NCBI GenBank assembly: GCA_022563755.1
Contig: JADFMT010000003.1
Span: 1 to 40,654, forward strand
Length of the DNA: 40,654 nt
Source: Patescibacteria group bacterium
GTDB taxonomy: Bacteria; Patescibacteriota; Minisyncoccia; HO2-45-28
Direction of reading: 5' to 3'
The notes below the pieces were generated by a model. The model saw only the letters and a program-made list of their open reading frames with translations. It ran no database searches and had not been told where the DNA came from. This document shows, one piece after another, positions 8,016-26,481 of the stretch (the first letter of the stretch is position 1; each line of letters begins with the position of its first letter). The position numbers were made by a program, and so were the translations under genes.

Positions 8016-8087
8016 GCCGCGGTAGCTCAGTGGTGGAGCGCTTGCTTGAAGAGCAAGGCGTCGGGGGTTCGATTCCCTCCCGCGGCA
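8016..8087 (+). tRNA. tRNA-Phe (GAA)
   Basis: Acceptor GCCGCGG/CCGCGGC, loop TTGAAGA, T-arm GGGGGTTCGATTCCCTC. Confidence 0.94.
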
Positions 8088-8090
8088 CTC

Positions 8091-8132
8091 AAAACAAAAA
8101 GAATGGCATCGCGTCATTCTTTTTGTTTTGAG
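8091..8132. terminator. Long A/T-rich hairpin after tRNA-Phe (bidirectional terminator-like)
   Basis: CAAAACAAAAAGAATG-gcatcgcgt-CATTCTTTTTGTTTTG. Confidence 0.8.
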
Positions 8133-8147
8133 TTGATGATAGAAACA

Positions 8148-8379
8148 GGAATCGAACCCTACGAAAGGGGGTACCAGCCGCGAGGCTCTTTCGCAAAGCG
8201 AAAAGCCCCGTCTCCGGGGAAAACTGTAGTTTTCCCCGTGGCGGAAAACAGCGAGACTGAGCTTGTCGAAGCCGAGCGCTAGAAATCCTTCGACACTGAG
8301 CTCAGGACGAAGTGCCGAAGGATTTCTAGGGAGGACCATAAGCGACGACGGGTTCTAGGAGCGCAGCGACGGATTCCCT
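8148..8379 (-). repeat. tRNA-associated palindromic element, copy 1 (inverted relative to copies 2 and 3)
   Basis: GGAATCGAACCC...acgaaagggggtaccag.cgcgaggctctttcgcaaagcgaaaagccccgtctccggggaaaactgtagttttccccgtggcggaaaaca...GGATTCCCT; shared with 15164-15389 and 20092-20298. Confidence 0.85.
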
Positions 8380-8503
8380 ATATTGAAAAAACCATTGCTT
8401 TTATTGACATCCGTTTAGAGTTTTGGTAGAAAGACTATGGCGTACCTTTTAAAAACCAACAACCAAGAAGGCCTGACAATATCGAACCTTGAAAGGAGAT
8501 ATT

Positions 8504-8827
8504 ATGTCCAAAGTCAGCGAACAGCAGTTCTGTGAGATCCTTCAGCCCAAGCTCGGCGATTCGTGGGATCGCGCCCTGACCGTCTTCCGTAACTACGGCG
8601 AGATCTTGGCGTATGACGTAACCAACGTCCTACTCCATGCCGCCGACCAGGGAAAGGCGGATGAGGTGCTCGGCATTCTGGAGAAACACTATGAGAGCCA
8701 TCTCCAATTTCAGCACCCGGAGATCCGCGGCACTATCGAGGATCGCCTTCTCGGCGTCAATCCCACCCAGAATATGTTTCTTCGCATCTGCCAACAGACG
8801 TTGAGTCTCCAGCCGTCTCCGGCGTAG
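8504..8827 (+). CDS. Hypothetical protein
   Basis: ATG at 8504 preceded by SD GAAAGGAG; the track start at 8489 is an upstream TTG. 107 aa. Confidence 0.7.
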   Translation: MSKVSEQQFCEILQPKLGDSWDRALTVFRNYGEILAYDVTNVLLHAADQGKADEVLGILEKHYESHLQFQHPEIRGTIEDRLLGVNPTQNMFLRICQQTLSLQPSPA

Positions 8828-8926
8828 TGATGCCAGATGATACACGCGAGAACCCGGTCGGGTTCCACAGCACAATCGTGGAACTCGGCCATTTTCTTTT
8901 TGTTTGTATGTTTTGCGGATCGGTGA

Positions 8927-9415
8927 TTATTCGTGTTTGATTTTGAGTTTTTGTACCCGTTTTTTGTCGAGTTTAGGAAGACGGATGGTTAGAAGACCAT
9001 TCTTGATTGAAGCTTCTGCAGTTTCCACATCAATTTCCTGCGGGAGCATAATAGCCCGTGAAAACGACCCCCAATAGAGTTCTTGATGAAAATAGCGATC
9101 ATCCGAGACCTCGCGGTGTTTTTCACGCCTCCCCTTAATAGTTACCATGTCTCGAGTAATCGAAACATCTAACTCCTCCGGTTTTAGACCGGCAACTATG
9201 GATTGCATCACAATCTCGTCAGGCGTCTGATATACATCGGCCATAAGCTGTCCCTCACCCTCAACCGGAGGAAGCGGACTTTTTCGCCCCGGGGTGCCTT
9301 GAGCCACGGCCGCATCTGCCGTTACCTGTTCTTCACCGCGTAAAGTGGGTTCGTCGTTGTCTGCCGGATACGATCCGGTGAGTCGTTCAAAAAATAGTCG
9401 TCGATCTTTAGGCAT
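8927..9415 (-). CDS. Hsp20/alpha-crystallin family small heat shock protein
   Basis: VYQTPDEIVMQSIVAGLKPEELDVSITRDMVTIKGRREKHREV...RYFHQELYWGSFSRAIMLPQEID...AEASIKNGLLTIRLPK. Confidence 0.95.
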   Translation of the reverse strand: MPKDRRLFFERLTGSYPADNDEPTLRGEEQVTADAAVAQGTPGRKSPLPPVEGEGQLMADVYQTPDEIVMQSIVAGLKPEELDVSITRDMVTIKGRREKHREVSDDRYFHQELYWGSFSRAIMLPQEIDVETAEASIKNGLLTIRLPKLDKKRVQKLKIKHE

Positions 9416-9459
9416 ATATTATTTAATATATCAAATTATAGCTGAATAAATAAATTTCA

Positions 9460-10173
9460 TCAGTGGATAAGTTTTTTTAGCTTCTCAAATGATAGAATAA
9501 GAATCATCCCTCCCAGCCATACCACAGAAAAAATATAAAGAAGGCTGGATCCACCTCCTATTAGTATAAAAAAATTGAAAAAAGTATGCAAGAGGGTTGC
9601 AAGGGAAATTCCCCAAAACACGTTACGCAGCCGATGCTCGGGATGAAAAAATGAATATGCAACCGAAAACCCTACAATGGCTGAAGTGAGAATATGAAGA
9701 AGCGTAGCCCCCACAAAGCGCAGATGAATGGCTACGAAACCACTGATAAACTCGTGCTGAAAAACATTAAAAAGCATAAAAATGTTCTCTACGGCCGCAA
9801 ATCCAAGTGCGGCCGTAATCAAATAGATAGGTGCATCAATAGGCTCATCAAAAAAGGGTTTTCGCAAAGCGGCCCAATAGGCAGCCCCGTACTTCAAGAC
9901 CTCCTCAGCACCCGCCCAAAGAAAGAGAAGAAAAAACGATGGAAGAGCTCTTGGCCAGAATCCGAGCGCAATGCCCGCGCCGTATATAATCTCCTCTAAA
10001 ATTAAGGCAATGGGCACGGCTAGAGCACCTGCAACAAACGTCAAAAACAAAATCCGCTTGGGCTCAGGATGAGGATCCTCGCGCAGCCAAAACCAGAGCC
10101 AAACGCCAGCGGCCAAAAGTCCGCCCGCAAACGCAAAAAGACCGGCTATGGGGCTGGCAATCACTTGGGCCAC
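9460..10173 (-). CDS. PrsW-family intramembrane metalloprotease-like protein
   Basis: Multi-TM protein with AEEVLKYGAAYWAALR and FVGATLLHILTSAIVGF motifs typical of PrsW. Confidence 0.85.
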   Translation of the reverse strand: MAQVIASPIAGLFAFAGGLLAAGVWLWFWLREDPHPEPKRILFLTFVAGALAVPIALILEEIIYGAGIALGFWPRALPSFFLLFLWAGAEEVLKYGAAYWAALRKPFFDEPIDAPIYLITAALGFAAVENIFMLFNVFQHEFISGFVAIHLRFVGATLLHILTSAIVGFSVAYSFFHPEHRLRNVFWGISLATLLHTFFNFFILIGGGSSLLYIFSVVWLGGMILILSFEKLKKLIH

Positions 10174-12386
10174 GACTCAACCATTAAAAGATCCTTGCTG
10201 CTCGCACGAACCGCTTCCCATATATTCTCTGTAATATGGGGTAGAAACGGATGGAGCAATCTCAGGCAGTCCGTCAATACCAAGACTAAAATCTCTTGCG
10301 TGCGTGTTTTAAGCGCGGGGTCGCCCAGCTGCTTTTTTGAGCTCTCTAAATATTGATCACAGAAATCATGCCAGAAAAAATCATACAGTTTGTGAAGTGC
10401 GTGCCCAAATTGATAATGGTCGATGTGACGGGTTACTTCTTTTTTTGTTTTTTTAAGAGACTCCAAAATTTTTCGGTCTTCTTTCGTTTTAGGATGCGGT
10501 TTTTTAAAGTAGTCCCCCCTCGCCCCCGCTTCGCCAAGGCTACGCAGGGCGAGCAAGGCTTCGGGGGGCGACTCATTCCGTTCGAGAACGAATCGAGCCG
10601 CATTCCACATTTTATTTAAAAATTTCTTCCCTGCAACCAGCGCTTCCTCAGACCAATGGATGTCCTGCGTACCCATGGTTTGCCACGTAAGTCCAAAGCG
10701 AAGCGCGTCCGTTCCATACTTCTCGATCATGACTATTGGATCTACAACATTACCAAGACTTTTAGACATCTTCCGGCCTTTTTGATCAAGCACCGTGGCA
10801 TGAGTATAACTTGTTTTAAACGGGCTCTTTTTGGTAAATTCAAGACCCGAGAAAACCATGCGCACGATCCAGAGAAAAAATATTTCGCGCGCCGATGATA
10901 TCATATCCGTAGGATAAAAAGTTTTTAGATCCTTGGTTTTTTGAGGCCACTCAAGGGTTGCAAACGGCCAGAGGGCTGAAGAAAACCACGTATCAAGCAC
11001 ATCCGGAATTTGCTTGTAGCGAGCGTCACAATGCTTGCATGCGGGTTCTGTTTTTGAAACAACCATGTCAATACATTTTTCAATATCTTTTTCTCTCCCG
11101 CGCTTTGGAATACATACGGGATCATGTTTCCAAACCGGCAGACGGTGACCCCACCAGAGTTGACGCGAGATATTCCAGTCCTTCACCTGTCTTAACCATT
11201 CAAGAAAGATCTTCTTTCGCTGCGGCGGAATAAAGGTAATTTTCTCTCCCCGAACCACCTGTCTCGTTTTTTTAGCAAGCTCGCGCATGGAAAGAAACCA
11301 CTGCAACGAAACCAGAGGTTCAATGATGGTTTGACACCGTTCGCATCTGCCAATCCGATGGATATATTCCTCTTCTTTCTCAAGCAGCCCCGCTTCTCTT
11401 AATGCCTCCACCACCTTTTTTCGGCATTCAAGCGTCTTCAATCCCATGCAAATGGAACCGGCCTCTTTTGTCATTCTTCCCTGCTGGTTAATCACCTCAT
11501 ACGATAGAAGTTTATGACGGAGCGCAATCTCAAAATCTAAAGGATCGTGTAGAGGAGTTATCTTTACAGCCCCCGTTCCAAACTTCTGGTCAATCTCTTT
11601 GTCGGCAATAATCGGAATCGTTCTGTCTTTAATCGGAAGTCTTGCCTTTTCGCCAACAAGATTTTTGTAGCGAGGATCGCTCGGGTGAACCGCAACCGCA
11701 GCATCTCCCAGCATGGTCTCGGGCCGCGTTGTGGCAACCGTGATAAAGCCGCCTGCTTCGAGTGGATATTTGATGAACCAAAGACTTCCTTTCTCTTCTA
11801 CGTGTTCCACTTCGAGATCAGAAATAGATGTTTGGCATCGGCTACACCAATTAATGATCCGTTTTCCCTGATAAATCCATCCTTTTTTGTAGTAGTGCTC
11901 GAATGCTGCCTTCACGGCTTCTTGGTACTCATCATCCATGGTGAAGCGGCCTCTAGTCCAATCACACGAAAGACCCAACAATTTTAACTCTTGATCAATG
12001 GCGTCCCCATTTTCTTTCATCCACTGCCACATTTTCTCAAGAAACTTTTCTTTCCCCAAATCAAATCGCGTCTTGTTTTCTTTTCGAAGTTCCCGCTCCA
12101 CAACATATTGCGCAGCAATACCGGCATGATCTTTGCCGGGCAAAAAAAGGGCTTTGTATCCTTGCATGCGTCGCTTACGAATAACGATGTCGGAGAGGAT
12201 ATTTTCCAGTGCATGCCCAACATGAATATGGCCCGTAATATTGGGTGGGGCCATCATAACGGTAAAGGATTTTGGACGCTTGCCGGGTAATTTGTCGGGA
12301 TTAAAATAACCGCTTTTTTCCCATTTTTTATAGATATTCTTCTCTACCTTGTTAGGGTCGTAGGGTTTGGAGAAATCTACTTTCAT
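10161..12386 (-). CDS. valS: Valyl-tRNA synthetase
   Basis: MMAPPNITGHIHVGHALEN, DVLDTWFSSALWPFATLEWP, KMSKSLGNVVDP; 741 aa. Confidence 0.97.
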   Translation of the reverse strand: MKVDFSKPYDPNKVEKNIYKKWEKSGYFNPDKLPGKRPKSFTVMMAPPNITGHIHVGHALENILSDIVIRKRRMQGYKALFLPGKDHAGIAAQYVVERELRKENKTRFDLGKEKFLEKMWQWMKENGDAIDQELKLLGLSCDWTRGRFTMDDEYQEAVKAAFEHYYKKGWIYQGKRIINWCSRCQTSISDLEVEHVEEKGSLWFIKYPLEAGGFITVATTRPETMLGDAAVAVHPSDPRYKNLVGEKARLPIKDRTIPIIADKEIDQKFGTGAVKITPLHDPLDFEIALRHKLLSYEVINQQGRMTKEAGSICMGLKTLECRKKVVEALREAGLLEKEEEYIHRIGRCERCQTIIEPLVSLQWFLSMRELAKKTRQVVRGEKITFIPPQRKKIFLEWLRQVKDWNISRQLWWGHRLPVWKHDPVCIPKRGREKDIEKCIDMVVSKTEPACKHCDARYKQIPDVLDTWFSSALWPFATLEWPQKTKDLKTFYPTDMISSAREIFFLWIVRMVFSGLEFTKKSPFKTSYTHATVLDQKGRKMSKSLGNVVDPIVMIEKYGTDALRFGLTWQTMGTQDIHWSEEALVAGKKFLNKMWNAARFVLERNESPPEALLALRSLGEAGARGDYFKKPHPKTKEDRKILESLKKTKKEVTRHIDHYQFGHALHKLYDFFWHDFCDQYLESSKKQLGDPALKTRTQEILVLVLTDCLRLLHPFLPHITENIWEAVRASSKDLLMVESWPK

Positions 12387-12390
12387 TTCC

Positions 12391-13533
12391 CTATTTTATC
12401 ACTTTTTTTTGCCCAAAAGAAAGACGGCCATCTGCTCTCAATTTTTTGGGTTTTGTAAAATCTTTTTTAAGCGCATGAAAATAGCTAGCGGCTGCAATCA
12501 TGGCTGCATTGTCACCCGTAAATGCGCCTTCTGGATAAAGAAAAGATATTTTAAGTATTTTTTTAAGTTCTTTTTGAAGATGCTTATTAGCCGCTACCCC
12601 ACCTCCTAAAATAACGGTTTTTGGATTGAATTTTCTAACGGCTTTTAAGGTTTTTGCAACCAAAACCTCCACTGCTGCATCTTCAAATTCTCGAGCAACC
12701 AATGCCTTATTTAACTTCGGATTTTCCCGAAGCGCATACAGTACTGCGGTTTTCAATCCCGAAAAACTAAAATTAAAATCCGGGGATTTTATCATCGGCC
12801 TTGGAAGTTTAATGTTCGACGCTCGGTGTCGAACCGTTGAAGCGAGTTTTGCCACTTTAGGACCGCCGGGAAACGGCAAACCCAAAAGCCGTCCCACTTT
12901 ATCAAATGCCTCACCCACCGCATCATCCAGAGTTTCGCCAATGATTTTATAATCCAGCCACTTTTTCATGAAAACGAGTTCCGTATGCCCGCCGCTAACC
13001 AAGAGCGCAATCGCTGGGAAGTGAATTACCGGAAAAGACGAAGTGTCTTTGGCCGTGGCGACTCCGGCTGGCTGTGCGATCCTTAATTTGGTCGGAACGA
13101 CCTTTAGAGATATAGGGGCGGAGCCACGGGCAGATGACATCTCGTCTTTATGTAACAAAACAGAGGCTATATGTCCCTCCATATGATTCGCTGCAACAAT
13201 CGGCTTTCTATATTCTTCCGCAAGCCCACGCGCAAAATTGATCCCTTCCCAAAGACATGGTTCAAGTCCGGGTCCTACCGTTACCGCAATAACATCGGCG
13301 TTTTGTATCTTATGTTTAGTGTCTTGTATTTTTTTAAAAAGAATTGGCAAATTACGTTGATGCTCTCTTTTTGCAAGACGAGGAACCACGCCGCCAAAAG
13401 GGGCGTGGGTTTTCACTTGGGAAGAAACGAGATTTATTAAAATATCAAAACGCGGCTTTGAAAAACCACCCTCGGCTTCGATTACCACAAGAGCTGTCTC
13501 ATCACATGATGTTTCAACGGCAAAAATTTTCAT
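12391..13533 (-). CDS. tsaD: tRNA N6-adenosine threonylcarbamoyltransferase
   Basis: MKIFAVETSCDETALVV, NHMEGHIASV, ALLVSGGHTELVFM, GGGVAANKHL; the track ORF extends to 13545, the MKIF start at 13533 is more likely. Confidence 0.96.
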   Translation of the reverse strand: MKIFAVETSCDETALVVIEAEGGFSKPRFDILINLVSSQVKTHAPFGGVVPRLAKREHQRNLPILFKKIQDTKHKIQNADVIAVTVGPGLEPCLWEGINFARGLAEEYRKPIVAANHMEGHIASVLLHKDEMSSARGSAPISLKVVPTKLRIAQPAGVATAKDTSSFPVIHFPAIALLVSGGHTELVFMKKWLDYKIIGETLDDAVGEAFDKVGRLLGLPFPGGPKVAKLASTVRHRASNIKLPRPMIKSPDFNFSFSGLKTAVLYALRENPKLNKALVAREFEDAAVEVLVAKTLKAVRKFNPKTVILGGGVAANKHLQKELKKILKISFLYPEGAFTGDNAAMIAAASYFHALKKDFTKPKKLRADGRLSFGQKKVIK

Positions 13534-13593
13534 AAATTTCCTCATATAAAGATTATCATAAAGAAAGTCCCAGGAATTCCTAGGACTTAAATA

Positions 13594-14544
13594 CTAAGAA
13601 GATTTCAGGAAAAACCGAATGCCAAAAAGTTTACGATTCATCTCTTGGCCCGCTAAACCCACGCGCATTGTGCTATCCGGGCCATTATAGTCCTCGTAAA
13701 ATAAAGAAAGTCCGCTTAGGCGTTTTTTAGACAAAAACATATCATATGCAACACCAAAAACGTAAGACTTGTTGCCTTTGCGGCTCTCTATATGACCGCT
13801 TGCGGAAAGATCAGATACCGGATTCACGCGATAGACAAACCTTGGTGCGCCAAAAAGGGATCGATAAGATTTTCGCACATCCCGATTAAAGAACGAACTA
13901 AATACATCATCAAATTTCGCTTCCCACAAAATCGCATCGAGCCGATATTCAAACGTGAACTTTGGAGCTATCTGCCACTGATGAGCAAAACGGCAAAATA
14001 CGAAATCCCGCGCGCTTATCTCACTAACGTCGATCTTCCGGTTTTCAACAAATTTTCTTGTCTCGCTACTTTCCAGTCCGCCGAACGAATGATGCTGATA
14101 TCCGCAACCAACAAACAGCTCTGGCCGAAAATACCACCGGATATCAAATCCGAGACTCCAAATAGAGGCCCTAACAGATTCCTCTTCGCCCTCGTTAAAG
14201 AAGACTCGGTTTCCGCCCCGCCAAACCCAGGCGAGTTGCTCCGGCCACCAATCGCATATTCCTAAAGCGCGTGTTGGGAGAAGCGAAAGGAGTGGAAACC
14301 CAAACCATGCGCCCTCAATGCTTCCTTCTCTAGAATACAAACCGTTTAAACGACCCTCTAAATCCGCTTTTGTCAAAAGGGGCTCAAACCGCACCTCATC
14401 AAACGAGAAAGACTTTCGGTATTTTGAATACGAAGAGACATAGCATTCATCGTCGTCCGCTTCCCTCGCAAAAGAGGTTGCGGGAGCGACGATTGAAAAA
14501 ACGAGCAGGGTCACAAGAACCCACCAATATCTTATTTTTCTCAT
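13594..14544 (-). CDS. Hypothetical secreted protein with beta-rich, barrel-like pattern
   Basis: Signal peptide MRKIRYWWVLVTLLVFSIVAPATSFA; alternating aromatic/hydrophobic strands; SD GGAGGT upstream. Confidence 0.65.
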   Translation of the reverse strand: MRKIRYWWVLVTLLVFSIVAPATSFAREADDDECYVSSYSKYRKSFSFDEVRFEPLLTKADLEGRLNGLYSREGSIEGAWFGFPLLSLLPTRALGICDWWPEQLAWVWRGGNRVFFNEGEEESVRASIWSLGFDIRWYFRPELFVGCGYQHHSFGGLESSETRKFVENRKIDVSEISARDFVFCRFAHQWQIAPKFTFEYRLDAILWEAKFDDVFSSFFNRDVRKSYRSLFGAPRFVYRVNPVSDLSASGHIESRKGNKSYVFGVAYDMFLSKKRLSGLSLFYEDYNGPDSTMRVGLAGQEMNRKLFGIRFFLKSS

Positions 14545-14644
14545 CTCTCTACCTCCTCTACAGGTGTAAATGAGCGATTTTTACTACCCCAATGCTATCA
14601 AAATAGGCTTCGGACGTCAACGAGTCTAAAATATTACTTCTTTA

Positions 14645-14705
14645 TGTGCATTTTAGGAGAACAGGTTATTTATGGTGAGTTTGTCGAACTAGAACCTGTT
14701 TTTTT
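14645..14705 (+). repeat. Repeat R2, copy A, terminator-like hairpin
   Basis: TGTGCATTTTAGGAGAACAGGTTAtttatggtgagtttgtcgaactAGAACCTGTTTTTTT. Confidence 0.7.
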
Positions 14706-14720
14706 ATATAAAATGTGAAG

Positions 14721-15053
14721 TTAAGGAGTTAGTTTCCATTCTCCCTCCACATGCTTAGCAACTGAATGTCCACCGACTGGAATGCCTTCTTGATCAAAAA
14801 AAGTAACGTGAATAGCGGTAATCGAAGCCTGCCCTTCTGAGTATTGTCCCTTTCTCATGTATGAGTACTCTGTATCTCCATCTTCTCCAGAAACTTTGAT
14901 GTCCCACAGGTAAAGACCGCGTTCATCTTCAAGTTTTCGTACGTCTTCATATCCTTCCTTCCCGACTAATTGTTCAAAAACTGATTGTACCTCTTCTGGG
15001 GTGGGAATAGCCCCTGGTCCTTTTTCAAAAGTGTTTGGTGATCCTTCATGCAT
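14721..15053 (-). CDS. Hypothetical protein
   Basis: 110 aa, coding-like composition (MHEGSPNTFEKGPGAIPTPEEVQSVFEQLVGKEGYEDV...). Confidence 0.6.
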   Translation of the reverse strand: MHEGSPNTFEKGPGAIPTPEEVQSVFEQLVGKEGYEDVRKLEDERGLYLWDIKVSGEDGDTEYSYMRKGQYSEGQASITAIHVTFFDQEGIPVGGHSVAKHVEGEWKLTP

Positions 15054-15163
15054 ATTTAGATAATACTACAAACCTTATGTTCCGTGTATTTAATAAAGCT
15101 ATGTGAAATGTTAGAACCTCTACCAAATTACTGAAAAACCGTTTAGTTTTCAGAAAAACCAGT

Positions 15164-15389
15164 GGGAGAATCCGCTTCCCTGCCTGCCGGCAGACAGGGC
15201 TAGAACTCGTCGTCCCTCGACTTCGCTCGGGACTCCCTAGAAACCGAGGGGGTTTCTAGCGCTCGTCCGCCAGCTGGCGGACTCACTGTTTTCCGCCACG
15301 GGGAAAACTACAGTTTTCCCCGGAGACGGGGCTTTTCGCTTTACGAAAGAGCCTCGCGTCTGGCACCCCCTTTCGCGAGTTCGATTCTC
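15164..15389 (+). repeat. tRNA-associated palindromic element, copy 2
   Basis: GGGAGAATC...ccgccacggggaaaactacagttttccccggagacggggcttttcgctttacgaaagagcctcgcgtctggcaccccctttcgcGAGTTCGATTCTC. Confidence 0.87.
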
Positions 15390-15403
15390 TAACTCATCAA
15401 ATC

Positions 15404-15442
15404 AAAACAAAAAGAACGACATAAAGCCGTTCTTTTTGTTTT
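15404..15442. terminator. Long A/T-rich hairpin flanking element copy 2
   Basis: CAAAACAAAAAGAACG-acataaagc-CGTTCTTTTTGTTTTG; homologous to 8091-8132 with a compensatory pair change. Confidence 0.8.
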
Positions 15443-15480
15443 GTGCACTTTAGGGGAATAGGTTAGAACCTCTCTTAAGG
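15442..15480 (+). repeat. Repeat R2, copy B
   Basis: TGTGCACTTTAGGGGAATAGGTTAGAACCTCTCTTAAGG. Confidence 0.7.
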
Positions 15481-15619
15481 CATTAACTGATTATTCTACA
15501 TTTGAAATGGTAACATTTTTAGTAGCGTTATTCCCATAGCACCTCGACCCGATATTAAATTGACACTCTCTACCACTTTTTGCATTATAAACTAAGTATA
15601 TAATTTAACTAATAATGCT

Positions 15620-16597
15620 TTGAAAAAGTATACTTTAAAAAGAGAAATACAAATCCAGAGATTTAAGAATAATCCTTTATTGGAGCCAGATCAATCTCAT
15701 GCCTGGATGAGTAAGAATGTATTTAACTGCGGGGTTATTATTGACGATGACGGCTTCTATAAAATGCTCTTTCGTGGTTCTTGGACTGAAGATCAGTCAA
15801 TGTCTGATTTGGGACTTGCAATCAGCGTTAACGGAAAAAAATGGTATGTTCTGGATAAACCAGTTCTAAAGTGTGGATTTAATAAGTTTTGCACATATGG
15901 CATTGACGACCCAAGAATTGTGAAATGGATTGACGGTTGGAAATATATTTTTGCAGCAATTCGCCCGTATAAGAAGGAATATAGAACAGTAGGTATTTTT
16001 AGAACAAAAAATTTCTTAGAATATGAGTGGGTTGGAATGCCATTCAACTTCGAAGATGTAGATGCTTCTATTTTCCCTGAACCAATTAACGGTTGGGCAT
16101 ATTTACTTCATAGAAAAGCTCCGCATATATGGATTTCTCGAACGAAAGATATGAGTTTAGAAAGTGGCTGGCAGGATATCCAAATTTTGATCAATAAAGA
16201 CCAATTTTATCGGCATCCTGAACATGGTGTTCTGCCTGACAAAATAGGTATTGCCGGACCACCAATAAGAACTCCCAAAGGTTGGCTGTTAATTACACAC
16301 GCGGTTCATCGATGGGACAAGAAGATAACAAGGTACTCTTTTCTTCTCAACCGGTCATACTCACTTAGCTTTGTAGTACTTGATTTAGAGAATCCTACAA
16401 AGGTTCTCTACGTCCACCCAAAACCCATATTATGGCCGGAGGAAAGACATGAAATTGTGGGCCTTATTCCAAATGTGGTCTTTAGCTGCGCCACTGTTGA
16501 TACCGGAGGCGATTCACTCTATATCTACTGGGGTGGAGCCGACACGGTAATTTGTGGTGGTAAACTTATGAAAAAAGATCTACCAATGTGCTATTAA
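15620..16597 (+). CDS. Glycoside hydrolase family 130-like (mannoside phosphorylase/hydrolase-type five-bladed propeller) protein
   Basis: NPLLEPDQSHAWMSKNVFNCGVI, GIDDPRIVKW, IAGPPIRTPKGWLLITHAV, GLIPNVVFSCATV, YIYWGGADTVICGG; likely TTG start. Confidence 0.85.
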   Translation: MKKYTLKREIQIQRFKNNPLLEPDQSHAWMSKNVFNCGVIIDDDGFYKMLFRGSWTEDQSMSDLGLAISVNGKKWYVLDKPVLKCGFNKFCTYGIDDPRIVKWIDGWKYIFAAIRPYKKEYRTVGIFRTKNFLEYEWVGMPFNFEDVDASIFPEPINGWAYLLHRKAPHIWISRTKDMSLESGWQDIQILINKDQFYRHPEHGVLPDKIGIAGPPIRTPKGWLLITHAVHRWDKKITRYSFLLNRSYSLSFVVLDLENPTKVLYVHPKPILWPEERHEIVGLIPNVVFSCATVDTGGDSLYIYWGGADTVICGGKLMKKDLPMCY

Positions 16598-16606
16598 ACC
16601 CTCTCT

Positions 16607-16636
16607 GCCTACTTCTAAATTTAGAAGTAGGCTCTT
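16607..16636 (+). terminator. Intrinsic terminator after the GH130-like gene
   Basis: GCCTACTTCTAAATTTAGAAGTAGGC followed by TCTTTT. Confidence 0.85.
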
Positions 16637-16638
16637 TT

Positions 16639-16680
16639 AGTACACTTTAGGGGAACAGGTTAAAACCTCTTTTAGAAGCA
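16639..16680 (+). repeat. Repeat R2, copy C
   Basis: AGTACACTTTAGGGGAACAGGTTAAAACCTCTTTTAGAAGCA. Confidence 0.7.
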
Positions 16681-16744
16681 GAGTTTAAGCCCCCCCCGTT
16701 TTTTCATACTGCTTATAGTACATCCGTAAAAAATTGGCGTGTTT

Positions 16745-18142
16745 TTATGGTGCGTACACATAATACACCCTCCCCTTATAGTCGTCTGTGAAGAAAAACG
16801 AATTTACATCATTTTGTAAAATATCGACTGGCCGCCCGAAGCGCTCTATGTCTCCGGTTGGCTGATCGGAATGTGCGTAAGCGGTGCTAATAAGCCACCC
16901 AGTTTGCGGTCTCTTTTCGGTTAAAAAACCATCCATGAATACCTCTTGTTCTCCATCCTTTGATACCCTAACTATGTGATACCCTGCACCGATCTTCGGC
17001 TCAAAAGAACCATGTAGAGCAACAAGAAATGTATTTTTTAGAACTGAATGTGCATCCTTAGAAAAATATTCAATACCAAGTGGTGCCGCATGTGGCTCAA
17101 ACGCGGAAAATGAACGCGGCACTTGTGCACATGAAAATGATTGTGTCCATTTTCGGGAAGTATCGGGATAAATTTTTCCATTTAATTCGTAACAGAATGG
17201 CCATCCATAATACTCACCTTCGATGAGCTTATACATACCATCGTCCGGCGCTTGAGGTCCAAGATGATCAGCTCCGTTCGCTGTCGCGTATAATTCTCTG
17301 CCTGCCCATGTAAAACCGACTGTATTCCGCAGCCCATCTGCATAGATCCGCTTATTGCCACCATCGGGATTTATGCTATATATCATAGCGCGCATTTCGT
17401 CCTCAGGTTGCTCACACGCATTACAACCACTGCCAACAGAAACATACAACCGATTATCGTAAAATTTGATCGTACGAGTGATATGCCACACAACACTTGA
17501 TTCTCCAGGCACCTGCTTATTGGGAAATGTCGTTATTATCTCCGGATCACCTGATGGCTCTGTGTCTCCTGCGCTATATGGATACCGAACGATATGCGCG
17601 GTAAGCGCAATATATATCCACTCTTGGCCATTTTTATCAGTATAAAATGCGACGCTATTAGGTCCCCGCAATCCAGAAAGATAGGTGCTTTTTGTTTGGA
17701 ATCGCTTATTTATTTCGTCAAAATTTTCTAAAACATAGATTTTTCCCTCGTGGGAAAGATTCATACTAACGAGATCTGGCACAAACATTCTTCCATCTGG
17801 ACTCATAGCCATAAATCGTGCTTTGCCCAAACCTTCTGCCGCAACAGAGATGTTAAAATCCTCAGCAACCTCGAACATGACTTCAGTTCCGTCTTCAAAT
17901 ATGATGATCCGAGGCACAAGATTGATAGTCGGAAGTACATCACTTTTACCGTCACCGACCTTAATCTGTGTGTTATTGAGAATTGCTTCAAAATCTGCTT
18001 GTTTTTCATCACCAATGTTATCAGAGGTAGAATTATCGGCCTTGTCTGAACGAGTCGTATTGTTAAAAAGAAACACTCCGCCCATAATCAGTACCAAGGC
18101 GATGACGATTCCCATAATCAAATTTTTAACATTCATAGACAC
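16745..18142 (-). CDS. Sorbosone/glucose dehydrogenase-like (PQQ-type beta-propeller) secreted protein
   Basis: N-terminal TM anchor; GPNSVAFYTDKNGQEWIYIALTAHIVRYPY, NRLYVSVGSGCNAC, DGLRNTVGFTW, ADHLGPQAPDDGMYKLIEGEYYGWPFCYE. Confidence 0.85.
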   Translation of the reverse strand: MSMNVKNLIMGIVIALVLIMGGVFLFNNTTRSDKADNSTSDNIGDEKQADFEAILNNTQIKVGDGKSDVLPTINLVPRIIIFEDGTEVMFEVAEDFNISVAAEGLGKARFMAMSPDGRMFVPDLVSMNLSHEGKIYVLENFDEINKRFQTKSTYLSGLRGPNSVAFYTDKNGQEWIYIALTAHIVRYPYSAGDTEPSGDPEIITTFPNKQVPGESSVVWHITRTIKFYDNRLYVSVGSGCNACEQPEDEMRAMIYSINPDGGNKRIYADGLRNTVGFTWAGRELYATANGADHLGPQAPDDGMYKLIEGEYYGWPFCYELNGKIYPDTSRKWTQSFSCAQVPRSFSAFEPHAAPLGIEYFSKDAHSVLKNTFLVALHGSFEPKIGAGYHIVRVSKDGEQEVFMDGFLTEKRPQTGWLISTAYAHSDQPTGDIERFGRPVDILQNDVNSFFFTDDYKGRVYYVYAP

Positions 18143-18333
18143 TTATTTTTACTATACATTAACAGAACATAATAAAAGGTGTACTCACAGCCGTGTTAGA
18201 ACCCGCAAAAGTTGTGATTTAAGAACGGTCTAAGCGCTACTCAAGCGCCAAAACTTGTATTCTGTGCGGAGCCCCTCACTTCGTTTCGGGACGCTACATT
18301 TTTCAGCCAATCGCTTCGCTCTTGGGAAAAATG

Positions 18334-18404
18334 TGCGGGTAGGGAGAATCGAACTCCCGTCATCTGATTGGCAACCAGATGTTTTGCCACTAAACTATAC
18401 CCGC
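18334..18404 (-). tRNA. tRNA-Gly (GCC)
   Basis: Acceptor GCGGGTA/TACCCGC, loop TTGCCAA, T-arm GGGAGTTCGATTCTCCC. Confidence 0.93.
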
Positions 18405-18443
18405 AAATTTTATTGATTTTATAGTTACAAATTAGCAAATTTC

Positions 18444-19169
18444 TTATCTCGCAGCAACCGAGTCACGACGAAGAAATTCAAGGACGCGTTCTAAATCTTC
18501 TGGCGGATCGGCTTCCAGTCCAAGTTTTGCGCCCGAAAGCGTAATAAACTCCAGCTTCCAGGCATGAAGAAATTGCCTGGCAAGTTCTGCAGGACAATCC
18601 GCCGGCTGGCGGAAGCGCTTACCACTATAAATCCGATCACATACGACAGGATGACCAATGGCAGCAAAGTGCGAGCGAATTTGGTGGGTGCGGCCGGTAA
18701 CCGGTACTGCTTCTACTAATGTATAGTCTTTAAAGCGCTCCAGTACGTGATACTCTGTCACTGCCTCTCGTGTTTTACCTCTAAGTCCTTTCCCAGAAAC
18801 GCGCCGCAGAGGGCTTTTCCGGCTGCGGCCAATCGGAAAATCTATCTTTCCCTTGTCATTTTTCACCCTCCCAATCACAAGCACTAAATAGTTTTTCTTA
18901 ATACGCCTTTTTTGAAACACTTCTTTGAAATAACGAAACGAGTTTTGGTTTCTGGTAATCAGTAAAAGGCCTGAGGTGTCTTTATCCAGCCGATGAACGA
19001 TTCCTGGACGAACTGGATCCTCGCCAACATTTTTTAGTTCGGGATATTTTTCAATCAATTCTTGAATCAAGGATCCGGATTTGTGGTGAGCATCCGGGTG
19101 CACCACAACTCCGGGCGGCTTATTTACCACCACGATATCCTCGTCCTCGTAAATAATGCGCAAGATCAC
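18444..19169 (-). CDS. RluA/RluD-family pseudouridine synthase
   Basis: DIVVVNKPPGVVVHPDAHHKSGSL, VHRLDKDTSGLLLITRN, EAVPVTGRTHQIRSHFAAIGHPVVCDRIY. Confidence 0.94.
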   Translation of the reverse strand: MILRIIYEDEDIVVVNKPPGVVVHPDAHHKSGSLIQELIEKYPELKNVGEDPVRPGIVHRLDKDTSGLLLITRNQNSFRYFKEVFQKRRIKKNYLVLVIGRVKNDKGKIDFPIGRSRKSPLRRVSGKGLRGKTREAVTEYHVLERFKDYTLVEAVPVTGRTHQIRSHFAAIGHPVVCDRIYSGKRFRQPADCPAELARQFLHAWKLEFITLSGAKLGLEADPPEDLERVLEFLRRDSVAAR

Positions 19170-19170
19170 G

Positions 19171-19830
19171 CTATTTAATATACCTTGATTGATCCTGAGA
19201 TTGAGACGGCATACCCCGAAATCCCGGCAGGGTTGAAGATGGCCCTGATGGTTGTGGTTTTTGAGGCGGAGAGGATGAGAGCGGTTTTGGTTGAGGTGGC
19301 TGTGATGGCTGGGGTGATCGAGGAGGTGGAGTCGGTTGGGATGACTGAGGGCCTTGAGGTAGAGATGGTAAAGACGGCTTTAGTCCGCCAGCTGGCGGAG
19401 TAGGCTGAACCGGCGGGGTAGGTGATTTAGGAGGCTGAAATGGAGATTTCTGAGGTGGAGTCGGTTGTGGAGATGGGGACGGTCGAAACGTTGGTTGGGT
19501 GGATGGAGACGGTCTTGGTTCTGCCGGTTTAGATGGATAGACGGGTCCGATTGTGGGTGCTCGCTCATTAAACTTAACGGTTGGCTCTTTTTCTGTAACT
19601 ATTACCACCTTCTGCTTCTTTCGTTCTTGCAAAAAAACATATACGAAAGTGCCCAATGCCAGTAGTAAAACAACGTATCGCAATATACTAACGAGCGCGC
19701 CAGAGACCACAACCGTGGAATCCTGTGTAACAATCCCGCTATAGACTCCGGTTCCAAAGAAAATCAGAATATTCAACATAATCCATGCCGCCACCCCCAA
19801 AAATAGTGCTTTAATTGTTACTTTGATCAT
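19171..19830 (-). CDS. Hypothetical membrane protein with Pro/Ser-rich C-terminal tail
   Basis: Two TM segments followed by about 130 residues rich in PSPQPTPP repeats. Confidence 0.75.
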   Translation of the reverse strand: MIKVTIKALFLGVAAWIMLNILIFFGTGVYSGIVTQDSTVVVSGALVSILRYVVLLLALGTFVYVFLQERKKQKVVIVTEKEPTVKFNERAPTIGPVYPSKPAEPRPSPSTQPTFRPSPSPQPTPPQKSPFQPPKSPTPPVQPTPPAGGLKPSLPSLPQGPQSSQPTPPPRSPQPSQPPQPKPLSSSPPQKPQPSGPSSTLPGFRGMPSQSQDQSRYIK

Positions 19831-19831
19831 A

Positions 19832-19976
19832 CCCCGTAAAGCAAAATCGAATGTTTCTTGCTAAATTCCAAAATAACCATTCGAATCTGCTGTTATTAAT
19901 ATAAACTTGTAATAATACATAATTATACCTCGCAAGAAACTAAATTTAGCTTTCAATTTTGCCTTACGGGGCATAT
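19832..19976. repeat. Inverted-repeat-bounded leader/element directly upstream of the 19830 start codon
   Basis: CCCCGTAAAGCAAAAT (19832) pairs with ATTTTGCCTTACGGGG (ending 19976); internal GTTTCTTGC/GCAAGAAAC inverted repeat; TATAAT on minus strand inside. Confidence 0.7.
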
Positions 19977-20022
19977 ATTATAGTATACCACAATGAATGC
20001 GAGTGCGCGCTGCAGGATTTGC

Positions 20023-20078
20023 CAGCCCAAGGCTGGTCCGCCTCGGGCGGAACACCTAATAATCTTTAAATAGGTGGG
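20023..20078. repeat. Cluster of three tandem palindromes
   Basis: CCAGCCcaaGGCTGG, CCGCCtcgGGCGG, CACCTA...TAGGTG next to element copy 3. Confidence 0.75.
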
Positions 20079-20091
20079 CGTTGGAGGACTC
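20074..20091 (-). repeat. Duplicated 3' end of tRNA-Val(GAC)
   Basis: GTGGGCGTTGGAGGACTC, exact 18-nt match to 20354-20371, which spans the tRNA 3' end. Confidence 0.9.
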
Positions 20092-20298
20092 CGTCGCTTC
20101 CTGCCGGCAGGCAGGCGCTTCTAGAACCCGTCGTCCCTCGATTTTACTCGGGACTCCCTAGAAACCCCTCGGTTTCTAGCGCTCGCTTCGCTCGCTGTTT
20201 TCCGCCACGGGGAAAACTACAGTTTTCCCCGAAGACGGGGCTTTTCGCTTTGCGAAAGAGCCTCGCGTCTGGCACCCCCTTTCGTGGGTTCGAGTCCC
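20092..20298 (+). repeat. tRNA-associated palindromic element, copy 3
   Basis: cgtcgcttcctgccggcaggcaggcgcttctagaacccgtcgtccctcg...ctgttttccgccacggggaaaactacagttttccccgaagacggggcttttcgctttgcgaaagagcctcgcgtctggcaccccctttcgtGGGTTCGAGTCCC. Confidence 0.88.
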
Positions 20299-20311
20299 AA
20301 CAAACACAATA

Positions 20312-20356
20312 CACAAAATAACAAACACCATTAAAAAGATGTTTATTATTTTGTGG
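20312..20356. terminator. Long A/T-rich hairpin between element copy 3 and tRNA-Val
   Basis: CACAAAATAAcAAACA...TGTTTATTATTTTGTG. Confidence 0.75.
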
Positions 20357-20427
20357 GCGTTGGAGGACTCGAACCTCCGGCCTTCTCGATGTCACCGAGA
20401 CGCTCTAACCGGCTGAGCTAAACGCCC
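20355..20427 (-). tRNA. tRNA-Val (GAC)
   Basis: Acceptor GGGCGTT/AACGCCC, loop GTGACAT, T-arm GGAGGTTCGAGTCCTCC. Confidence 0.92.
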
Positions 20428-26045: not shown

Positions 26046-26481
26046 AAATCAAACCGCTGGAGTTAATAATGATGGTTTTGGACTCTGAAGGATCGGCTTT
26101 AAGCCGCACGGATACGTCCCCGGACGGATTTGCGTCCCCCGTTAAGCGCTCAAAGACAACATCACTGCCAAGAATATTGATTGCAAATATCTCTACCCTA
26201 TTGGAAAGTATCAGCGTTTTATTATTTGGGGCACCCATCGTAAACGTCGCTCCTTTAAATAATACGCTGTTGGATGTTTCAAAATGAACTCCGAATTGCG
26301 AATCGCCCTCAGAAGAAAGTGTGCGCGACCGTGCTTCACGAACGAGTGTAAAAATTTCATCTACTGCACGATCAAGCTCGCGCGCATCGCGAAACGTTGC
26401 AAAGGCTCCAATAACGATGGCTGAAAGAATAATTAAAACCGCAATGGAGAGAAGTACTTCGAGCGTCGTAAATCCTCTCAT
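26035..26481 (-). CDS. Prepilin-type protein (GspH/FimT-like)
   Basis: MRGFTTLEVLLSIAVLIILSAIVIGAFATFRDARELDRAVDEIFTLVREARSRTLSSEG. Confidence 0.88.
   Translation of the reverse strand: MRGFTTLEVLLSIAVLIILSAIVIGAFATFRDARELDRAVDEIFTLVREARSRTLSSEGDSQFGVHFETSNSVLFKGATFTMGAPNNKTLILSNRVEIFAINILGSDVVFERLTGDANPSGDVSVRLKADPSESKTIIINSSGLIYVQ

Follow-up and report, generated by a model that had tools for sequence, protein, structure and literature searches.

Why does one short palindromic sequence recur next to tRNA genes in a small bacterial genome, and why do its ends repeat parts of those genes? The question is raised by the stretch of DNA shown above (the window, 40,654 nucleotides long, which is contig C8 of the 781-kb genome G000), where a 90-nt core is found at 8162-8251 (minus strand), 15286-15375 (plus strand), and 20195-20284 (plus strand). 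The three window copies were 98 to 99% identical, which confirms the original prediction of a common core; additional core copies were found on contigs C10, C2, C24, and C31, and copies at different targets of this single genome also were 98 to 99% identical. The reading that we prefer, and to which we assign a probability of roughly 40%, is that these copies mark a small noncoding and nonautonomous mobile unit that inserts at gene ends matching its own. The unit would consist of the core element (E), a short inverted copy of the target gene end (X-inverse, or X⁻¹), a loop, and a new gene end, X(new). As found, it lies inside the end of the target gene, the target is intact by virtue of X(new), and the old end, X(native), remains on the other side of the unit. 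The parts of the window copies are the following.

8016-8088, plus strand: tRNA-Phe(GAA) (ARAGORN, Rfam tRNA), the intact target of copy 1, whose 3' end is the "new" X
8087-8133, no strand: A/T-rich hairpin of copy 1, the center of the X-inverse/X inverted repeat, with 19-nt perfect arms and a 9-nt loop
8148-8159, minus strand: X-inverse of the tRNA-Phe T-arm, GGAATCGAACCC on the plus strand, 12/12 complementary to 8065-8076
8160-8371, minus strand: core element E of copy 1, with hairpins H1 to H4 and the optional 36- to 40-bp module, 98% to the 90-nt core at 8162-8251
8372-8379, minus strand: displaced tRNA-Phe 3' fragment (left X of copy 1), GATTCCCT on the plus strand, just 8 nt being recognizable
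15164-15172, plus strand: left X of copy 2, GGGAGAATC, target uncertain (Gly, in a tie with Met)
15173-15376, plus strand: core element E of copy 2, 99% to the core, with a CCTGCCTGCCGGCAGACAGG palindrome inserted near the left end
15377-15389, plus strand: inverted T-arm copy of copy 2, GAGTTCGATTCTC, best tRNA match Ala(GGC) (15; Gly, 14)
15403-15443, no strand: A/T-rich hairpin of copy 2, with 16-nt perfect arms and no intact tRNA after it
20074-20091, plus strand: displaced tRNA-Val 3' end (left X of copy 3), GTGGGCGTTGGAGGACTC, 18/18 identical to 20353-20370, rank 1 of 47 tRNAs
20092-20284, plus strand: core element E of copy 3, 99% to the core
20287-20298, plus strand: inverted T-arm copy of copy 3, GGTTCGAGTCCC, rank 4 of 47, nonspecific alone
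20312-20355, no strand: A/T-rich hairpin of copy 3, the center of the inverted repeat, with 21-nt arms that are 86% complementary
20353-20427, minus strand: tRNA-Val(GAC) (ARAGORN, Rfam tRNA), the intact target of copy 3

Read in the orientation of the core, the order is X(left), the displaced gene end; E; X⁻¹; a loop or terminator hairpin; X(right), the intact gene end; and the rest of the gene. X(left) directly repeats the end of the target gene and stops at or near the T-loop (GATTC/GAACC) in tRNA targets and approximately 15 to 80 bp inside the gene in protein targets. The direct repeat was clear at 59 loci, with a median X of 31 bp (15 to 89 bp) and a median inserted unit, from junction to junction, of 179 bp (109 to 321 bp). 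E had a median length of 102 bp (48 to 240 bp) and contained several hairpins: a variable H1, a conserved H2 (AGAAACC..GGTTTCT), an optional and variable H3, and a conserved H4 (CGGGGAAA..TTTCCCCG) followed by GACCCC(C)TT. The H2 and H4 stems stayed paired through two-sided changes (the second pair of H2 was AT in 25 cases, TA in 19, GC in 14, and CG in 3), and a CGTC motif was present near the left junction or the start of E at 28 of the 59 loci compared with 7% of random control windows. An alternative pairing of TTTTCC with GGGGAAAA inside the core was dropped, as variants such as L041 and L042 keep H4 and break the alternative. X⁻¹ frequently crosses the junction by a few bases and, together with the A/T-rich hairpin and X(right), forms a single long hairpin. 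The A/T-rich hairpins that had been predicted beside the copies were found at all three, not as separate neighbors but as the center of an inverted repeat made of X-inverse and the intact gene end.

The family had been described as modular, and some copies did carry an additional hairpin module of 36 to 40 bp or extra palindromes. At L020 (C24 of G000, position 26143), the optional 40-bp module, an AGACG..CGTCT hairpin, stood alone with no other part of E, so that the module may move on its own. At tRNA-Lys(TTT) and tRNA-Gln(CTG) of G000, the core was a variant with a different H4 hairpin. The tRNA-Gln(CTG) loci L190 (C47) and L208 (C31) had the A/T-rich hairpin in common and different E cores, a pattern as if E had been swapped at one hairpin. 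Downstream of each of the three tRNA-Ala genes of this genome (L179, L185, and L205), the tRNA 3' end recurs within a short pattern (around GTAGGATCCTGAG..CTCA..CGACGTAGG.TCCAC) that is related to the element and is perhaps a smaller cousin of its family. In an Rfam scan of the window, the gathering score was reached by tRNAs alone and by no other RNA family.

We scored the ends of each copy in G000 against all 47 tRNAs of the genome. For the left (displaced) end, the adjacent tRNA was the best or tied best match in six of the seven copies as scored; the seventh, at a Met gene, had been scored against the wrong Met gene (the genome has two), and its top match was nonetheless a Met gene. The claim that both ends of copies 1 and 3 match the adjacent tRNA-Phe and tRNA-Val stood for the left ends (Phe was best in a tie with Pro; Val ranked first with 18/18) but not for the right (inverted) T-arm ends, for which the own tRNA ranked only fourth of 47. 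Taken alone, these inverted ends are nonspecific because GTTCGANTCC is universal, and their specificity was visible in the pooled test only. For copy 2, which had been assigned to a distant tRNA-Gly, the distance was borne out, with no tRNA found by ARAGORN within 2.9 kb and the tRNA-Gly 2.9 kb off. However, its inverted end scored 15 with tRNA-Ala(GGC) and 14 with tRNA-Gly, its left end scored 9 with both Gly and Met, and tRNA-Gly as its target is doubtful. Close to this copy, a GH130-family gene (15620-16597, PF04041) lies between two direct repeats of TGCACTTTAGGGGAAYAGGTTARAACCTC at 15446 and 16643; each repeat directly follows a hairpin, and the two copies, which we considered but did not retain as a cassette site, were the only ones found in G000.

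The pooled test comprised 86 loci, and the mean score of the direct end was 16.8 with its own target and 8.3 with other targets, while that of the inverted end was 12.0 and 7.2, respectively. None of 20,000 permutations reached the observed sums, and the same was true of the tRNA-like subset (n = 50); ends that fit random tRNAs equally well, the outcome that would have spoken against the original prediction, therefore were not what we observed. The own target ranked first on each measure at 41 of the 86 loci. The test was conservative, because the inverted end was sought in the first 40 bases only and targets less than 42 bases away were skipped. The match between end and target is specific and above chance. 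Targets in relatives included many kinds of tRNA as well as the 5' ends of fusA, lepA, dnaX, thrS, and dinP, the 3' ends of ndk and pilC, and others, with the protein gene names taken from reading translations rather than from a search for each gene. Thus, the ends are not always derived from T-arms, and the label of a tRNA-targeting element, although correct in that tRNAs are used, is too narrow because the ends of conserved protein genes also are used.

Protein targets made it possible to compare the two gene ends as coding sequences. In ten hand-selected protein-target segments, all from loci whose reading frames were evident, the left and right ends differed by 82 nucleotides but only 17 amino acids; a useless duplicate decaying neutrally would accumulate a mean of 52.8 amino acid changes, with a minimum of 40 in 5,000 simulations. 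In fusA of the relative G003, nine codons differed between the ends without a single protein change. This nearly synonymous divergence means that both ends are alleles that were functional not long ago. X(native) and X(new) are diverged alleles, each once under coding constraint, and the unit swaps a gene end for a foreign allele; a decayed local duplication is not the source. Copying templated by the tRNA, one of the two processes originally suggested, is not favored for the same reason: neither end is a copy of the other, and both are functional alleles that have diverged.

The inverted copy followed the intact end. At sites where the left and right ends differ, X-inverse agreed with the right (intact) end at 59 and with the left (displaced) end at 3, or at 27 loci to 0; because the alignment of X-inverse was made to the right copy, the count is biased toward it, though hardly to that extent. 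E, X-inverse, and the new gene end therefore act as one unit, and the simplest interpretation is that the host's old end is the left one and that the right one came with E and the inverted copy. A gene-drive or guide-RNA function, with E as the scaffold of a 3' guide, was rejected, since the inverted copy matches the intact end (the would-be rescue) and not the native one.

An empty site was found in the comparison at fusA. The genes rpsG and fusA are contiguous in G000, while a unit lies between them in G003. In the relative G001, there were units at both the 3' end of rpsG and the 5' end of fusA, with a 269-amino-acid gene without a Pfam match in between; the rpsG unit (L214) has a second, divergent palindromic core with AAATTTCCCCC/GGGGGAAATTT ends, an inverted copy, and a displaced HFAW-stop end. 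Between G001 and G003, the E copies at fusA were 95% identical and the fusA genes 79%, while X(new) plus the spacer of G003 was 87 to 88% identical to that of G001. Similarly, E was 95 to 96% identical and the gene body 79 to 88% at dnaX in two genome pairs (89% versus 77% in a third), and at tRNA-Arg of the sister species G045 and G016, E was 96% and the neighboring gene 79% identical. Higher conservation of the noncoding E than of the adjoining gene indicates that the unit was transferred recently, that it is strongly constrained, or both. G045 and G016 share this tRNA-Arg site with direct repeats of different extent; therefore, the repeats also are reshaped in place.

The element family was present in at least 39 of 286 genomes of the class Paceibacteria (Parcubacteria) and in at least 5 of 380 genomes in a survey of the phylum. 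Both values are lower bounds, because the survey relied on a BLAST query together with a fixed pattern built around a single type of H4. Outside the class, one copy with unchanged anatomy was found at tRNA-Val of G319. Close matches in named records, most of them from metagenome-assembled genomes, belonged to Patescibacteria wherever a group was stated, including Ryan-, Jorgensen-, Staskawicz-, Portnoy-, Lipton-, Terry-, Taylor-, Nealson-, and Nomurabacteria. We found no description of the X–E–X⁻¹–X anatomy in the literature searched, most of which was outside subscription journals.

The unit itself is noncoding, and we therefore looked for an enzyme elsewhere in the genomes. Of four enzyme families, only a PF00589 (Xer-type) protein was present throughout (19/19 genomes, with one gene in most and two in G003 and G168). 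A large serine recombinase was found in 9 of 18 genomes, a reverse transcriptase in 7 of 19 E-bearing or related genomes, and a Y1 transposase (Y1_Tnp) in 13 of 19. The first two were absent from both G000 and G001, which have several copies of the element, and Y1_Tnp was absent from G000, G026, G150, G061, G172, and G097, all of which bear E. None of the fetched enzyme genes had E beside it, except for one large serine recombinase gene (L064/L122, C19 of G003) that E abuts and that is without the N-terminal catalytic part (Resolvase profile 43 to 145); the 3' end of this gene reaches a tRNA-Met. Serine recombinase genes of the class were located near varied tRNAs (Gln, Ser, Leu, Lys, Asn, His, and Val/Ala) at L126, L127, L131, L132, L135, L136, and L139 to L143. 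The reverse transcriptase and Y1 transposase were set aside as mobilizers, being not consistently present across genomes, and retroviral-style priming from a tRNA 3' end was rejected, as protein genes also are used.

As we picture it, the unit would move between genomes probably as circular or single-stranded DNA, and X-inverse and X(new) would fold into a hairpin, the base of which may be the joining site. A recipient gene that matches X would be the point of entry, through a single homology-matched crossover at the base of the hairpin. A candidate enzyme is the single host Xer recombinase acting on the folded hairpin, as with CTXphi or integron attC, and an alternative candidate is host recombination following DNA uptake; the proposed joining step is modeled by analogy on these two systems, CTXphi and integron attC. 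E could possibly gain the X of a new target by snap-back copying of the target strand. Several observations weigh against entry of a mobile unit. About a third of the copies have no clear X or recognizable target, and the target sequences share no evident motif that a sequence-specific recombinase could read. No element copies were found among viral (IMG/VR), phage, and plasmid records, and no circular or free form of the unit was seen. At dnaX, X-inverse also fits the host gene just past the junction, a fit that would not be expected if X-inverse had simply been carried in. The conservation of E could reflect functional constraint instead of transfer. Additionally, some sites look vertically inherited with coevolving direct repeats (tRNA-Arg in G045 and G016 and dnaX in three species of one genus), and gene conversion may account for part of the pattern.

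The strongest rival, which we regard as unlikely, is ordinary homologous recombination, in which rare and ancient insertions placed E in conserved gene ends and E then traveled with the neighboring gene by transformation, with one crossover in the gene body, the other in the short X, and template-switching during replication keeping the inverted repeats alike. The synonymous divergence of the two ends, the inverted copies that follow the resident gene (including the dnaX trio), the orthologous sites in sister species, and the absence of a serine recombinase, reverse transcriptase, or Y1 transposase in G000 all would be accounted for. However, repeated crossovers within 15 to 60 bp of diverged homology would be required, and neither the near-identical E cores at several targets of one genome nor the higher conservation of E than of the gene carrying it is explained. 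It is improbable that E is instead copied at the target, with the target strand priming synthesis of E from an RNA or DNA template, snap-back giving X-inverse, and upstream rejoining leaving a variable direct repeat, comparable to target-primed reverse transcription. Direct repeats that vary from 15 to 89 bp, an X-inverse that begins at the junction and crosses the cut by a few nucleotides, a structured core with compensatory changes, and the 9-nt loops in two window hairpins fit such copying. The coding test, however, rejects its prediction of identical repeats followed by neutral decay of the displaced end, and multicopy G000 and G001 are among the genomes without a reverse transcriptase.

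Transposition of the REP/RAYT type (repetitive extragenic palindromes and their associated transposases) would mean that E is pieced together from CGTC-tagged REP hairpins and that a Y1 (IS200-like) transposase mobilizes it. REP transposition is not known to replace gene ends, none of the fetched Y1_Tnp genes was flanked by E, and six E-bearing genomes have none, which makes this explanation very improbable despite the enrichment of CGTC near the left junction and the Y1_Tnp genes of 13 genomes. That CGTC-tagged REPs themselves have no dedicated transposase that is known (PMC3733652) also counts in its favor. An origin as nonautonomous relatives of large-serine-recombinase islands, for which many tRNA genes of the class also are integration sites, would explain why recombinases adjoin tRNAs at many loci and why one E abuts such a gene. 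This origin is largely refuted and the serine recombinase is rejected as the mobilizer, as there is none in G000 or G001, other recombinases have no E nearby, and the sole neighbor lacks its N-terminal catalytic part. Serine integrases also are not known to need or make repeats of 15 to 89 bp.

Overall, the original observation was partly confirmed and its interpretation partly supported; what holds is a nonautonomous family with target-matched ends, and the permutation test shows the match to be specific. It is doubtful, though conceivable, that these hairpin units form a separate class of mobile element that targets through the complementarity of the carried X-inverse and X, encodes no enzyme, can be retargeted, and swaps the ends of tRNA and essential genes between Parcubacteria species. 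If the preferred reading is correct, tiny noncoding DNA units exchange tRNA and essential-protein gene ends between species across a major bacterial radiation; they would then provide an example, open to testing, of insertion that is matched to its target with no known enzyme, and perhaps a principle for programmable insertion. The mosaic gene ends could mislead phylogeny as well as annotation, through false open reading frames that run across the units, and palindromic repeats of the CGTC type, long without a known mobilizer, could have a definite insertion anatomy.

Compared with known systems, the unit resembles miniature inverted-repeat transposable elements and elements like short interspersed nuclear elements (SINEs) in being noncoding, nonautonomous, and multicopy, whereas it has neither a target-site duplication of fixed length nor fixed terminal inverted repeats, its terminal repeats being derived from the target. 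A SINE-like retroelement also would draw on an available reverse transcriptase, which 12 of the 19 E-bearing or related genomes, including G000, are without, and a RAYT system on a Y1 transposase that is present and flanked by the repeat, which was not found. With CGTC-tagged REPs and the Rickettsia palindromic elements RPE-4 and RPE-6, it shares a short palindromic sequence, mobility, a CGTC end in many copies, and the absence of a known dedicated transposase (PMC3733652). In contrast to these repeats, the cores described here measure about 100 to 200 bp and have four hairpins, target-matched ends, a carried replacement gene end, and an inverted target copy. About half of the copies only have the CGTC tag, and the element is not a single palindrome of 20 to 40 bp; we did not class it as a REP because of the length of E and its several hairpins. 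In integron attC and CTXphi attP, a folded single-strand hairpin is the recombining site, and the hairpin beside the junction may play this part here. In this case, however, no integron integrase, attI, or coding cassette was identified, and fixed attC-like R and L boxes appear to be absent, as the base of the hairpin follows the target (fusA versus dnaX versus tRNA). Phages, integrative and conjugative elements, and genomic islands integrate at tRNA 3' ends and restore them. The unit is like these elements in that the displaced 3' or 5' gene end and its replacement form direct repeats (59 loci), the target stays functional, and conserved genes are used. No integrase is encoded by the unit or travels with it, and the hosts mostly have a single Xer-type gene. 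In contrast to these elements, it measures only 109 to 321 bp, carries no genes, adds an inverted copy of the target, and brings one core to dozens of unrelated targets.

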